Shown here piece by piece: positions 3,759 to 64,000 of a stretch of DNA of 64,000 nucleotides. Source of the stretch: Brachybacterium sp. EE-P12 (lineage in GTDB: Bacteria; Actinomycetota; Actinomycetes; Actinomycetales; Dermabacteraceae); NCBI RefSeq assembly GCF_003711805.1, contig NZ_QXCP01000004.1:496001-560000 (forward strand), read 5' to 3'. The notes below the pieces were generated by a model that saw nothing but the letters and a program-made list of their open reading frames with translations, made no database searches and was not told where the DNA came from. The position numbers and the translations under genes were made by a program. Numbering within the stretch: the stretch's first letter is position 1; each line of letters begins with the position of its first letter.

Positions 3759-6670
3759 GCGGTGACTGTAATCAGGGCGCGGGCTCCTCGCTCCATCTCC
3801 ACGAAGGAGTGGTTCACCGCCGTGTAGGTTCCGGGCTCCTCGAACACGAGCTCGACGAACCCGCCCTGGGCGGCGGCGAGGTCGAGGGCCTGGGCTCCGC
3901 CGCCGGTCTCGTTCTCCGGGCGCAGCAGGTACTCGCCCTCCTTGAACACGGTGTCGAACACGCCGCCGACGACGTGGAAGGAGATCCCGCGGGACGGCCC
4001 CGCGGCCAGCACCCACAGCCGCACCCGCTCGCCCACCCGTGCCTCGAGCGGCGCGGCCACGTACTGGGTCGCGTGCCCGTTGAAGACGGTGAAGTCCGGG
4101 CACTCGGCCGCGATCTTCGCCGTGCTGACCGGGAGGGCGCCCTCGTGCATGGCGTCCTCGGCGCCGGGCGCGCCCTCGGGGACGAGATAGTGATCGGACT
4201 GGACCAGCACGTACTCGCGATCGGCCGGGGCCAGATCCGCAGGCGGCACCACCAGCGCCCCGATCATCCCCGCCGCCAGATGGACCGTCATGGGCATGGT
4301 CGAGCAGTGGTAGAGCCAGATCCCGGCATGCTCCGTGGTGATCGCGTACTCGAGGGACTCCCCGGGCGGGATCGTGCGCATCACCTCGTCCGGGGAGACG
4401 CGGCCGGCGTGCAGGTCCAGGGAGTGGCCCATCGACCCGTTGTTGACCAGGTCGACGGTGAGCCGGGCCCCGAGCTCGGAGCGAATCACGGGGCCTACCA
4501 CGGTCCCGTCGTAGGTCATCGCGTCCATCGTGACGCCGGGGGCGATCTCGGCGGGCAGGTCGAGCGCCTCGAGCCTCAGGCGCTGGTCGGTGCCCGCCGG
4601 GTCGGGCAGTCGGGCGTCGCGCACCTCGTATCCCGCGCCGGGGTCCGCCATGAGGTCCGCGTCGACGCGGGCGAGCTCGTCGGTCCCGCCCGAGGCGGAT
4701 CCCGCTCCCTCCGCGGCGCCGTCGGCCTCCCCGTCCGCGCCGGTGGCGCGGACCCGCAGGGTCATGCCCATCGCGCGGTGGCCGACGATCGAGCACCAGC
4801 CCTCGACGTCATGGGTGATGACGCCGCCGTCGAGGGTCGCCGACGCGCCGGGCTGCAGCCGCCCCGAGGACTCGCCGGTGGCGAGGACGAGGTCGTGCAC
4901 GTCGTGCTCGTCGTCATTGCTCAGCTCGATGACCAGGGTGTTCCCGGCCGGGACCTCGAGCACGTCCGGGGTGAAGCGCATCTCCGCCATGCTCACCGCG
5001 ACCGTGGTCGTCTCCCCGGTGGGGGTGATGCCGCCCGAGCCGCCGCTGCCGTCCTCTGCGGGGACGGAGCCGCGGAAGCGGTCCAGCGACGTGCCGGCCG
5101 CGGTGGTCGCGAGCACCGCGCCGACGCCGAGGAGCACGCCGGTCAGCGAGCGTCGGTCCAGACTGCGCTCCTGCGCGGCGGCGCGGGCGCGGAGCCGGGC
5201 GGGGGAGGAGTCCGCGCGGGACGTCGGCCCCGACGGGGCGGCGCCGTCCCCGGTCGCAGGCCGGGACGGGGGCACGGTCGGAGTGGGCAGCGCCTCCCCG
5301 CGCAGGCGGATGCTGACCCGCACCGCCAGCACCAGCAGCACCACGAAGCTCACCAGCACCGCGAAGGCGAGCAGGGAGACGAGCACCCTGGTCATCGAGC
5401 CGAAGTCCGCCGCGTCGGCGGTGCCGAGCGTGAGCGCGGAGAACAGCGCCGCGGCGCCCGAGCCTCCCGCCTCGCCGAGCACGAACAGGGCGACGGCGAG
5501 GTTGTAGGCGACCACCCGCACCACGGCCCCGCGGCTCATCATCTCCAGCGCCGCCTTCGTCGAGCGGGGCCCGCCCCGCAGCGTCACCGGCAGCAGATGG
5601 CTCATCGCCCCGAACAGCACCTGCAGCATGAACCCGGCGACGAACGGGACCGTGAGCCGCTGCGCATCGGCGGCGACCAGGGAGCTGCTCAGCTGCGCAT
5701 CCGCGGACCCCCACCACAGGACCGCCAGCGCGCCGACGGTCAGCGCGCACCAGATCACGCCCGCCCCGATCGAGAGCACCGGGAAGAGGGACAGCGGCAC
5801 CGTCCGCTCCTGTCGCGCCGCGCGCACGGCCAGCCGCACCAGCGTCGCTCCCACCCAGGCGAGACAGCCCAGGTAGATCACGACGAACACGGCGCCGAGC
5901 AGCGCGGAGCCGACGAGCGCGCCCGCCGTCGCGCCGAGCACGGCCAGGAACATTCCCTGCAGACCCTGGGCGGCGCGCCGGGCGGCATCGAGCTCGATCC
6001 GCGTGCGCAGAACCGTCGGCCAGAGCGTCAGCAGCGTCCCCGTGACCGTCAGACCCACGAAGCCGAGCACGTTCAGGATCTGATGGGCAAGCAGCAGCCG
6101 GCCCTGCCAGGGCTCGCCGGGGCTGAACGCCATCACCGCGCCGAGCGTCGCACCGACGGGGAGCAGGCAGGAGGCCGCGATGTACGCCTTCACGGTGAAC
6201 TCGAAGCGCGGGGCGAGAGCCGCCTTCACCTGCGCGCCGAGCGCCGCCGCGTACCAGACCAGCGCCGCCGAGACCATGAGCGCCCCGACCACCACCAGCC
6301 ACGGCCAGGAGGGCAGGATCCCCGCGATCGTCACCACGATCCCGGAGGTCAGGAGGTAGATCCGTGCCAGCTGCCGTCGTCGCGACTGCTCACCCAGGCG
6401 GGTCTTCAGCAGCGCCTCAGTGAAGTGCTGACCCCACACCATGATCGAGGTCGTGATCAGCCCGAGCGTCACCATGTGCACCAGCAGCCAGCGCGACTGC
6501 GGCAGCCACCGATGCACGAGCACCGTGACGATCAGCGCCACCATCCACATCAGCACGGGCCGCGAGGCCCGCCGATGCCATGCGCCGCGGTCCAGCGCGG
6601 GCGAGGTCCCGGCCGCGGGCCGGGACGGGGGAGAGGACAGCGACGGCATGACCACCTCGGGACGGTGCAC
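3755..6670 (-). CDS. membrane-anchored multicopper protein: polytopic domain + cupredoxin + CuNIR-like domain
   Basis: 971 residues in three modules. Residues about 38-455 form roughly a dozen membrane helices with conserved His (H65, H82, H196, H358) reminiscent of NnrS or heme-copper-oxidase-like membrane proteins. A further helix at about 508-527 leads to a blue-copper domain (about 557-643) with probable ligands H592, C626, H631 and M636. Residues about 690-971 match copper nitrite reductase (NirK/AniA): type 1 ligands H749, C789, H797, M802; type 2 ligands H754, H788, H954; catalytic D752 and H899. All expected residues are present, so reduction of nitrite to NO outside the membrane is the likely reaction, though a laccase-like activity is possible. 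Alternative start at Met8 (6649). Confidence 0.85.
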   Translation of the reverse strand: MHRPEVVMPSLSSPPSRPAAGTSPALDRGAWHRRASRPVLMWMVALIVTVLVHRWLPQSRWLLVHMVTLGLITTSIMVWGQHFTEALLKTRLGEQSRRRQLARIYLLTSGIVVTIAGILPSWPWLVVVGALMVSAALVWYAAALGAQVKAALAPRFEFTVKAYIAASCLLPVGATLGAVMAFSPGEPWQGRLLLAHQILNVLGFVGLTVTGTLLTLWPTVLRTRIELDAARRAAQGLQGMFLAVLGATAGALVGSALLGAVFVVIYLGCLAWVGATLVRLAVRAARQERTVPLSLFPVLSIGAGVIWCALTVGALAVLWWGSADAQLSSSLVAADAQRLTVPFVAGFMLQVLFGAMSHLLPVTLRGGPRSTKAALEMMSRGAVVRVVAYNLAVALFVLGEAGGSGAAALFSALTLGTADAADFGSMTRVLVSLLAFAVLVSFVVLLVLAVRVSIRLRGEALPTPTVPPSRPATGDGAAPSGPTSRADSSPARLRARAAAQERSLDRRSLTGVLLGVGAVLATTAAGTSLDRFRGSVPAEDGSGGSGGITPTGETTTVAVSMAEMRFTPDVLEVPAGNTLVIELSNDDEHDVHDLVLATGESSGRLQPGASATLDGGVITHDVEGWCSIVGHRAMGMTLRVRATGADGEADGAAEGAGSASGGTDELARVDADLMADPGAGYEVRDARLPDPAGTDQRLRLEALDLPAEIAPGVTMDAMTYDGTVVGPVIRSELGARLTVDLVNNGSMGHSLDLHAGRVSPDEVMRTIPPGESLEYAITTEHAGIWLYHCSTMPMTVHLAAGMIGALVVPPADLAPADREYVLVQSDHYLVPEGAPGAEDAMHEGALPVSTAKIAAECPDFTVFNGHATQYVAAPLEARVGERVRLWVLAAGPSRGISFHVVGGVFDTVFKEGEYLLRPENETGGGAQALDLAAAQGGFVELVFEEPGTYTAVNHSFVEMERGARALITVTA

Positions 6671-59150: not shown

Positions 59151-60491
59151 GTGGCACGTACGAGCGAGACCGGTGACGTCTTCAAGTGCTCCTTCTGCGG
59201 CAAGTCGCAGAAGCAGGTCGAGCGCCTGATCTCCGGGCCCGGGGTGTACATCTGCGAGGAGTGCATCGAGCTGTGCAACGAGATCATCGCCGAGGAGATC
59301 CAGGCCGCGCAGCCCGCCGCCGAGGAGCAGGCCCCGCTGCCCGCGCCGCGGGAGATCTTCGACTTCCTCGAGGAGTACGTGGTGGGACAGGAGCCCGCCA
59401 AGCGCTCTCTCGCCGTCGCCGTCTACAACCACTACAAGCGCGTGCGCGCCCAGGACTCCGAGCAGGCCGGCCCGTCCGCGAAGAGCGCCGCCGAGGCCCT
59501 CGCCGAGGAGGCCGGCACCGACCACGAGGACATCGAGGTCGCGAAGTCCAACGTGATGCTCGTCGGCCCCACCGGCTGCGGCAAGACCTATCTCGCCCAG
59601 ACCCTCGCGAAGATGCTCGACGTCCCCTTCGCGATGGCGGACGCGACCGCGCTGACCGAGGCCGGGTACGTCGGCGAGGACGTCGAGAACATCCTGCTGA
59701 AGCTGCTGCAGGCTGCGGACTACGACGTGAAGAAGGCCGAGCGCGGCATCATCTACATCGACGAGGTGGACAAGATCGGCCGCAAGGCCGAGAACCCCTC
59801 GATCACCCGTGACGTCTCCGGGGAGGGCGTGCAGCAGGCGCTGCTGAAGATCCTCGAGGGCACCGTCGCGGCGGTGCCGCCCCAGGGCGGGCGCAAGCAC
59901 CCCCATCAGGAGTTCATCCAGATCGACACGACGAACGTGCTGTTCATCGTGGCGGGCGCCTTCGCCGGGATCGAGGACATCATCAGCTCCCGGATCGGCA
60001 AGCGCGGCATCGGCTTCGGCTCCGAGCTGCACTCGCCGCTCGAGCAGGAGGCCCTCTACTCCAAGCTGCTGCCGGAGGACCTGTTGAAGTTCGGGCTGAT
60101 CCCCGAGTTCATCGGCCGCCTGCCGGTCATCACCAGCGTGTCCAACCTCGACCGCGACGCGCTGATCACGATCCTCACCGAGCCGCGCAACGCGCTCGTG
60201 AAGCAGTTCCGCAAGATGTTCGCCCTGGATGGTGTCGAGCTCGACTTCGAGCGCAGCGCCCTCGAGGCCATCGCCGACAAGGCCGTGGAGCGCGAGACCG
60301 GCGCGCGCGGCCTGCGCGCGATCCTCGAGGAGGCGCTCCAGCCGGTGATGTTCGAGGTGCCCTCCCGCGACGACGTGGTCAAGGTCGTCATCACCGAGGG
60401 CGTCGTCACCGAGGGGCGGGCCCCGCTCATGCTCACCGGCAAGGACGCGGACCGCGCCGAGGCCGACGACCGCCAGGAGCGCACTGCATGA
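59151..60491 (+). CDS. clpX: ATP-dependent Clp protease ATP-binding subunit ClpX
   Basis: 446 residues. N-terminal zinc-binding domain with four Cys (CSFCGKSQ ... CEECIELC), AAA+ module with Walker [10 protein letters not shown], pore loop GYVGED, Walker [11 protein letters not shown], and sensor 2 TGARGLRAI. The ClpP-docking IGF-type loop is present as RGIGFGSE. It unfolds tagged proteins and feeds ClpP1P2. GTG start with GAGGAGGA upstream. The chorismate mutase gene overlaps its 3' end by 4 bp. Confidence 0.97.
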
Positions 60492-60832
60492 GCACCCCCT
60501 CTCCCGCGGGCGGGACCCGCGAGGCGGAGGTCGAGCGCGCCCGGCAGCTCCTCGGCGAGGAGCGGCGCAGCATCGACAACATCGACGCCGCGCTCGTGCA
60601 CCTGCTCGCCGAACGGTTCTCCCACACCCAGCGGGTCGGGGTGCTGAAGGCCGAGCACGGCCTGCCCCCGGCGGACCCGTCCCGCGAGCAGCAGCAGATC
60701 GATCGCCTGCGCACCCTCGCCGACGAGGCCGGTCTGGACCCCACCTTCGCCGAGGCGTTCATGCGCTTCATCGTCACCGAGGTGATCCGCCACCACGAGC
60801 GGATCCGCGAGGAGGGTCAGGCCGGCGCCTGA
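60488..60832 (+). CDS. chorismate mutase (AroQ type)
   Basis: 114 residues, all-helical AroQ fold. The helix 1 pattern [21 protein letters not shown], followed by [19 protein letters not shown], has the active-site Arg and Lys, and [20 protein letters not shown] is the last helix. It converts chorismate to prephenate for Phe and Tyr. The ATG overlaps the clpX stop (ATGA), an arrangement seen in other actinobacteria, so it is probably co-expressed with clpX. Confidence 0.9.
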
Positions 60833-60894: not shown

Positions 60895-60900
60895 TAGCAT
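60895..60900 (+). promoter_or_regulatory. -10 element of a probable leaderless promoter (formate dehydrogenase)
   Basis: TAGCAT ends 7 nt before the ATG at 60908. Confidence 0.5.
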
Positions 60901-60907
60901 CGCTGCC

Positions 60908-63900
60908 ATGGCTCGAAAGACGTTCCTCGACTGGCCGGTGCTCCGGCAGCTTCGCGGAGCGGATCCGACCGGACGCGGCACCGCCGTCACGTCCGCGCGG
61001 ACCCGCAGCACCGCCCCGCGCACCGCCCAGGCCGACGGCGTCACCGAGAGCATCTGCCCCTACTGCGCGGTCGGCTGCAGCCAGCGGATCTTCCACCAGG
61101 ACGGCCGCGTCATCCAGATCGAGGGCAACCCGAGCTCCCCGGTCTCCCGCGGCCGCCTGTGCCCCAAGGGCGCCGCGAGCGAGCAGCTCGCGAACTCCTA
61201 CCTGCGCCAGACGAAGGTCCGCTACCGCCGCCCGTACGGGACCGAGTGGGAGGACCTCGACCTCGAGGTCGCGATGGACATGATCGCGGACCGCTTCATC
61301 CAGGCGCGCCGCGACCACTGGGAGGACGAGGACGAGCACGGCCATCCCCTCCGACGCACGATGGGCATCGCCAGCCTCGGCGGCGCGACCATCGACAACG
61401 AGGAGAACTATCTGATCAAGAAGTTCTTCACGGCGGCGGGCGCCATCCAGATGGAGAACCAGGCCCGCATATGACACTCCGCCACGGTTCCCAGTCTGGG
61501 AGCCTCGTTCGGTCGTGGCGGTGCCACGAACACGGTGCAGGACTTCGCCAACGCTGACCTCATCGTCATCGAGGGCTCGAACATGGCCGAGGCCCACCCG
61601 GTCGCGTTCCAGTGGGTGATCGAGGCGCGCAAGCGAGGCGCCCGGGTCATCCACGTCGACCCGCGCTTCACCCGCACCTCGGCCAACGCGGATCGGCACA
61701 TCCCGATCCGCACCGGCACCGACATCGTGCTGCTCGGCGGGGTGATCCGGCACGTGCTCGAGAACGAGCTGTACTTCAAGGAGTACGTGCAGGCGTACAC
61801 GAACGCCTCCACGCTCATCTCCGAGGAGTACGGGGACCCCGAGGACCTCGACGGACTGTTCTCCGGCTACGACCCGGAGACCGGCACCTACGACGACTCC
61901 ACCTGGGCGTACGCGGGCGACCCGGAGCAGATCGCGCGCGGCCTGCCTGAGCGGGACGAGACGCTGCAGCACCCCCGCACCGTCTTCCAGATCCTCAGGC
62001 GCCACTACGCGCGCTACACGCCGCAGATGGTGCAGGACACCTGCGGCATCTCCCCGGAGGACTTCGAGTACCTCGCCACCTCGATCGCGGAGAACTCCGG
62101 GCGCGAGAGGACCACGATGTTCGCCTACGCGCTGGGCTGGACCCAGCACCAGGGCGGGGCGCAGATGATCCGCACCTCCGGCATCCTGCAGCTGCTCATG
62201 GGCAACGTGGGCCGGCCCGGCGGCGGCATCATGGCGCTGCGCGGCCACGCCACGATCCAGGGCTCCACCGACATCCCCACCCTGTACCACATCCTCCCCG
62301 GCTACCTGCCCATGCCGAAGGCCGGCCAGGACGACTTCGCCGAGTACACCCGCGGGATCGGCAAGAAGGAGCAGAAGGGCTTCTGGGCGAACGCGGACGT
62401 CTACGCCATCAACCTGCTGAAGGCCTGGTGGGGCGAGCATGCGAGCGCCGAGAACGACTGGGGGTTCCACAACCTCCCCCGGCTCACCGGCGCGCACGGC
62501 ACCTACCAGACCCTCATGCGGATGCTCGAGGGCGACGTCGACGGGTACTTCCTGTTCGGCCAGAACCCTGCGGTCGGCTCCGCGAACGGGCGCATGCAGC
62601 GCCTGGGGCTGTCGAACCTGAAGTGGATGGTGGTGCGCGACTTCTACATGATCGAGTCCGCGACCTTCTGGAAGGACGGCCCGGAGGTCGAGTCCGGCGA
62701 GCTCTCCCCGGAGCAGATCGGCACCGAGATGTTCTTCCTGCCCGCCGCCAACCACACCGAGAAGGCGGGGTCGTTCACCCAGACCCAGCGCATGGTGCAG
62801 TGGCGGGACAAGGCCGTGGAGCCCCCGGGCGATGCGCGGAGCGACCTCGAGTTCATGTACGACCTCGGGCGGCGCGTGCTCGCGAAGCTCGCGGACTCCA
62901 CCGATCCGCGTGACCGGCCGCTCCTGGACCTCACCTGGGACTATCCCGTCGACGAGCACGGTGACCCCGACGCCGAGGCGGTCCTCGCCGAGATCAACGG
63001 CCGGCACATCGCCGGGGAGAAGGCCGGGCAGCCGTTGGCCTCCTTCGGCGAGATGAAGGACGACGGCACGACGATCGGCGGCTGCTGGATCTACTCCGGC
63101 GTCTACGCCGACGGCGTCAACCGCGCCCGGAAGCGCACCCCCGGCCAGGAGCAGGACGAGACCGCCGCCGACTGGGGCTGGGCCTGGCCCGCGAACCGTC
63201 GGATCCTCTACAACCGCGCCTCCGCCGACCCCGAGGGCCGGCCCTGGAGCGAGCGGAAGAAGTGGGTGTGGTGGGACGAGGAGTCCGGGACCTGGACCGG
63301 CAAGGACGTGCCGGACTTCCCGGCGACGAAGCGGCCCGACGATCCGGGCGACCCGAGCAAGGGCGGCGCCGCCGCCCTCGCCGGCACGGATGCATTCATC
63401 ATGCAGGCCGACGGGCGCGGCTGGCTCTTCGCCCCCACCGGGATGGTCGACGGGCCGATGCCGACGCACTACGAGTCGCCCGAATCCAACATCCGCAACC
63501 CTCTGTACGCGCAGCAGTCCAATCCCACCCGCGTCACCTTCCGGGACGAGGACAACCTCAGCTCACCGGGCGCGATGGGGGCCGGCGGCGAGGTGTACCC
63601 CTACGTGTTCACCACGTACCGGATCACCGAGCACCACACCGCCGGCGGCATGAGCCGCTTCCTGCCCTATCTCTCCGAGCTCCAGCCGGAGATGTACTGC
63701 GAGGTCTCCCCGGAGCTCGCCGAGGAGATCGGGCTGGAGCCCTACGGCTGGGCGACGATCATCTCCGCGCGCAATGCGATCGAAGCCAAGGTGCTGGTCA
63801 CCGAGCGCATGACACCGCTGCGCGTGGGGGAGCGGACCGTCCACCAGATCGGGCTGCCCTTCCACTGGGGGCGCGGCAGCGAAGCGGTCGTCCAGGGCGA

Positions 63901-64000
63901 CGGCGCGAACGACCTGATCGGCATGAACCTCGACGCCAACACCCAGATCCAGAACAGCAAGAACAACTCGTGCACGATCATCCCGGGCCGCCGCCCCCGA
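60908..64000 (+). CDS. formate dehydrogenase alpha subunit, selenocysteine-containing (3' end beyond window)
   Basis: Over 1031 codons, still open at the window end. A [4Fe-4S] ferredoxin-like site (C50, C53, C57, C85 in ICPYCAVGC and RGRLCPKG) is followed by the molybdopterin domains. Codon 189 is TGA (61472-61474) in the context ENQARI-TGA-HSATV, exactly where FDH enzymes have Sec, and His190 follows as required for catalysis. The frame then continues as normal FDH (FGRGGATNTVQDFANADLIVIEGSNMAEAHPV, GNVGRPGGGI). A SECIS hairpin starts 7 nt after the TGA. There is no twin-arginine signal at the N-terminus (MARKTFLDW), so it is probably cytoplasmic-facing. It oxidises formate to CO2; beta and gamma subunits should lie downstream. 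Reading it as a 188-residue protein or a pseudogene would be wrong. Confidence 0.92.
61472..61474 (+). other. recoded TGA (selenocysteine codon)
   Basis: In-frame TGA at codon 189 of the formate dehydrogenase gene, aligned with the Sec of FdnG and FdhF. Confidence 0.88.
61481..61519 (+). promoter_or_regulatory. bacterial SECIS element
   Basis: Lower stem GCCACG (61481-61486) with CGTGGC (61514-61519); upper hairpin 61486-61504 pairs GG-TTCCCA with TGGGAGCC around a GTC loop. The loop begins 19 nt after the TGA, within the range for SelB binding, and the T-rich bulge position plus the GTCT loop resemble the E. coli fdhF SECIS (GGTCT). Two alternatives for pairing of base 61486 exist. Confidence 0.75.

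Follow-up and report, generated by a model that had tools for sequence, protein, structure and literature searches.

The locus described here raises the question of whether an in-frame TGA ends a short protein or encodes selenocysteine (Sec) within a long one. In the window, i.e., the whole 64,000-nucleotide stretch of Brachybacterium sp. EE-P12 DNA that was analyzed, an open reading frame on the forward strand begins at position 60908 and ends at 61474 with a TGA (61472-61474). When this TGA is taken as a residue, the frame continues to the window end (60908-64000) with no other stop, as an earlier note on this DNA had claimed. A genome stretch reaching past the window (L009, whose position 1 is window position 60000 and whose first 4001 bases match the window exactly) places the end of this gene, an fdhA/fdnG-like gene referred to below as fdhA, at L009:4203-4205, equivalent to window positions 64202-64204 and 204 nt past the window; its product comprises 1098 amino acids, with the predicted Sec at position 189 in the context ENQARI-U-HSATVPSLGASFGRGG. 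The terminal stop is itself a TGA, which overlaps the start of the next gene. Inspection of relatives (L022-L083) revealed that the true fdhA end is TGA in nearly all of them too, so that one gene would use the same codon for Sec and as a stop.

The fdhA product scored 1800.6 bits against NCBIfam NF041513 (formate_DH_Act; cut-off, 1400), far above the curated threshold and with no difference from that family seen, and 933 bits against TIGR01553 (formate dehydrogenase-N alpha; cut-off, 814), the latter match forming a single stretch at residues 20-1018. Pfam families PF04879, PF00384, and PF01568, all above their gathering scores, correspond to Fe4S4, molybdopterin, and dinucleotide-binding domains, and the molybdopterin oxidoreductase and Fe4S4 domains of an FdhA/FdnG selenoprotein alpha subunit are thus present. 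The best solved structures were 1h0h and 1kqf, both formate dehydrogenases; 1kqf is a nitrate-inducible formate dehydrogenase major subunit. By BLASTP, the product is 38% identical to E. coli FdnG over its full length, with the TGA falling on the FdnG Sec codon (residue 196); it likewise coincides with the Sec codon of E. coli fdhF, so the alignment proposed in the earlier note bears out its reading. As in both E. coli genes, the UGA at this metal-binding position is followed by His.

We then considered how the codon is kept among relatives. TGA was present in all 61 loci read, which amount to 38 distinct sequences around the TGA, with some species under two handles and the window's own gene included as L073; a sense codon was found in none, even though the motif searched for also admitted Cys. 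Among named relatives, the nearest belong to Brachybacterium (at most 92% identity), and the codons 3' of the TGA are 70-92% identical in most of the genus. More distant TGA-bearing loci were found in Marihabitans, Sphaerobacter, Ktedonobacteria, Rokubacteria, and a Burkholderiales MAG, with Chloroflexi among the groups represented. The description of this TGA as lying at an invariant Sec position therefore holds both for the alignment with FdnG and for every locus read.

Immediately 3' of the TGA, single-sequence folding of positions 61475-61525 gave a stable structure (z = -2.75, with 1 of 200 shuffles as stable) containing a stem with a GUC loop. Comparison of 29 distinct sequences of 51 nt, with columns numbered from the U of UGA, supported a stem of eight pairs formed by columns 15-22 and 26-33 (61486-61493 with 61497-61504), which constitutes an apical bSECIS hairpin, GGTTCCCA-GTC-TGGGAGCC, at 61486-61504 on the forward strand. 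These columns are paired in 97% of cells, versus 58-67% when the partner is slid by one column. Compensatory change is evident at column pair 18:30, where both members are third codon positions (U-A in 18 sequences, C-G in 8, and G-C, A-U, and U-G in 1 each). G23 and U17 are invariant, and U24 is found in 27 of the 29 sequences; the conserved loop G and U are thus accompanied by supported pairing. The earlier note had correctly placed a GTC loop 20 nt past the TGA, but had the hairpin beginning at 7 nt; since the evolutionarily supported stem is 61486-61493/61497-61504, it begins 12 nt after the TGA. An optional lower helix on the same strand (61479-61485 with 61515-61521) is paired in 80% of cells and is not kept in all relatives, an A-U pair being lost in 19 of the 29 sequences. 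Among Rfam models, SECIS_3 had its best match in 9 kb at this position (32.5 bits; E = 0.0003), a weak match below the gathering score of 63, which is a curation threshold rather than a mechanistic requirement. The spacing from UGA equals that of the E. coli fdhF and fdnG SECIS elements, and the loop letters are similar (AGTCT/GGTCT; TGACACGGACCAACGGTAGCAAGTCTTGCTCC in E. coli fdnG versus TGACACTCCGCCACGGTTCCCAGTCTGGGAGCC in Brachybacterium fdhA). When the whole genome was searched with a covariance model built on the family hairpin, fdhA alone scored well (78.6 bits); the next match reached 24.7 bits (E = 0.17), hence no second selenoprotein was found with this model, which detects hairpins of the fdhA kind only.

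The selA, selB, selC, and selD genes that the earlier note had suggested looking for are all present within 7 kb 3' of fdhA, where they follow two genes for putative partner subunits. A lack of selB or tRNA-Sec, which that note had named as refuting its reading, is thereby excluded. Directly 3' of fdhA is a 4Fe-4S subunit gene (L009:4202-5203), and next a gene for an NrfD-type membrane protein (L009, about 5203-6318). Third downstream is selD (L009:6328-7347, minus strand), followed by selC, a tRNA-Sec gene with anticodon TCA (UCA) at L009:7445-7539 (80.3 bits; gathering score, 47), selA (L009:7590-8930), and selB (L009:8930-10726), whose product carries the SelB winged-helix domain PF09107. 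The FdhD gene is located elsewhere in the genome. Across the host's family, formate dehydrogenase and selA both exceeded their cut-offs in the identical 42 of 47 genomes, and the remaining 5 (G007, G042, G044, G045, and G046) had neither above cut-off. A tRNA-Sec gene was found in 40 of the family's genomes, and the formate dehydrogenase-bearing exceptions, G026 and G032, are incomplete assemblies (88% and 84%, respectively). Sec use, which the earlier note had called sporadic in actinobacteria, is therefore the rule in this family. In two genomes of the same genus, matches were split: selA contains a TGA at G027:C1:1102408-1103663, and both fdhA and selA matches are divided between frames at G003:C1:2854725-2862723. 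Sequencing errors may account for these splits, or the trait may be decaying.

Other readings of the TGA can be weighed against this evidence. If the TGA were a recent nonsense mutation in a pseudogene, the downstream frame should be decaying; the stop codon in frame is the sole point in favor of this reading, whereas TGA stands at that codon in every relative read, across genera and phyla, and beyond it the frame meets no stop before the window ends and its codons are conserved. We rejected this explanation on the strength of that conservation and regard it as exceedingly improbable. Two separate proteins, i.e., an N-terminal Fe4S4 fragment of 188 residues plus a long product initiated internally at 61535, are indeed what mechanical ORF calls yield. 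However, the FdnG alignment is unbroken across the join, the TIGR01553 match is one stretch, and the residues from the TGA to 61535 are conserved, and with this conservation the likelihood of a split gene is close to nil.

It is also very unlikely that readthrough of the UGA inserts an ordinary amino acid, or that a sequencing error masks a Cys codon (TGC or TGT). Cys does take the place of Sec in some formate dehydrogenases (PMC1794560), but TGA in 61 loci, a covarying hairpin positioned as in E. coli fdhF and fdnG, and a full adjoining sel set that co-occurs with the gene all argue against such a reading, and the conservation of the codon led us to reject it. With no sequence evidence found against the selenoprotein reading, we are nearly certain, as far as sequence comparison can tell, that the gene encodes the catalytic subunit of an FdnG-type molybdopterin (or tungstopterin) formate dehydrogenase made as a selenoprotein.

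From these features, we infer that Sec is inserted at UGA 189 in the cell. SelD would produce selenophosphate and SelA would convert seryl-tRNA-Sec to selenocysteyl-tRNA-Sec, both genes adjoining fdhA; SelB with Sec-tRNA-Sec (UCA) would bind the hairpin just past UGA 189 and insert Sec, which is the expected metal ligand. Because the 4Fe-4S and NrfD-type subunit genes are next to fdhA, electrons from formate would most likely pass through these subunits to the quinone pool. The actinobacterial N-termini (MARKTFLDWPVLRQLRG...) contain no SRRxFLK-type twin-arginine signal, which Rokubacteria relatives do have; L027, L054, and L076 match a loose RR pattern as MARRTFL start variants, with no hydrophobic stretch in 20 residues. 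Since this signal is missing, the active site likely faces the cytoplasm. The Brachybacterium locus thus differs from E. coli FdnG in lacking a twin-arginine signal peptide and in having an NrfD-like membrane partner, a leaderless start, and adjoining sel genes.

A comparable fdnG-fdxH-selABD-selC region was described in 2010 for Corynebacterium aurimucosum, with a Sec formate dehydrogenase containing an internal UGA (PMC2830990). The two loci share the clustering of this enzyme with selABD and selC; the genus is different, and the likeness is drawn from the published description of the cluster. Among bacterial selenoproteins, formate dehydrogenase is the most widespread, reported in 822 organisms (PMC5029168), and earlier papers have remarked on fdhA lying close to sel genes (PMC5029168, PMC1794560). 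A literature search for Brachybacterium with selenocysteine or formate dehydrogenase returned nothing relevant. Given the published C. aurimucosum cluster and a dedicated NCBI family model, the arrangement is an ordinary one already described in bacteria; the recoded stop was correctly read from the raw sequence and adds little to biology. In practical terms, fdhA is split in two at 61474 by mechanical gene calling, and only in this sense is the gene hidden, as the earlier note had put it, for in curated annotation NF041513 covers the enzyme.

The claim that fdhA has its own leaderless promoter was also supported. A -10 element, TAGCAT, lies at 60895-60900 on the forward strand and ends 7 nt before the ATG, and the mRNA would begin at or beside this ATG. 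TANNNT ending 6-7 nt before the start codon was present in 35 of 35 distinct upstream regions from actinobacterial relatives, compared to 1.7% in shuffles, which ignore relatedness, the upstream regions being otherwise diverged; a Shine-Dalgarno-like motif was missing in 34 of the 35. Some species have an extra ATG nine bases upstream, and as this ATG falls within the -10 element, translation in those species more likely starts at the downstream ATG. That a leaderless mRNA for the one selenoprotein found in the family, with a promoter kept at a fixed distance from the start despite differing upstream sequence, points to a connection of leaderless initiation with the expression of Sec genes is a doubtful proposition, and would be a small regulatory point. 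Farther upstream, between clpX and fdhA, a small ORF at 60488-60832 was identified by eye as chorismate-mutase-like, and similar sequence is found upstream of fdhA in many, not all, relatives.
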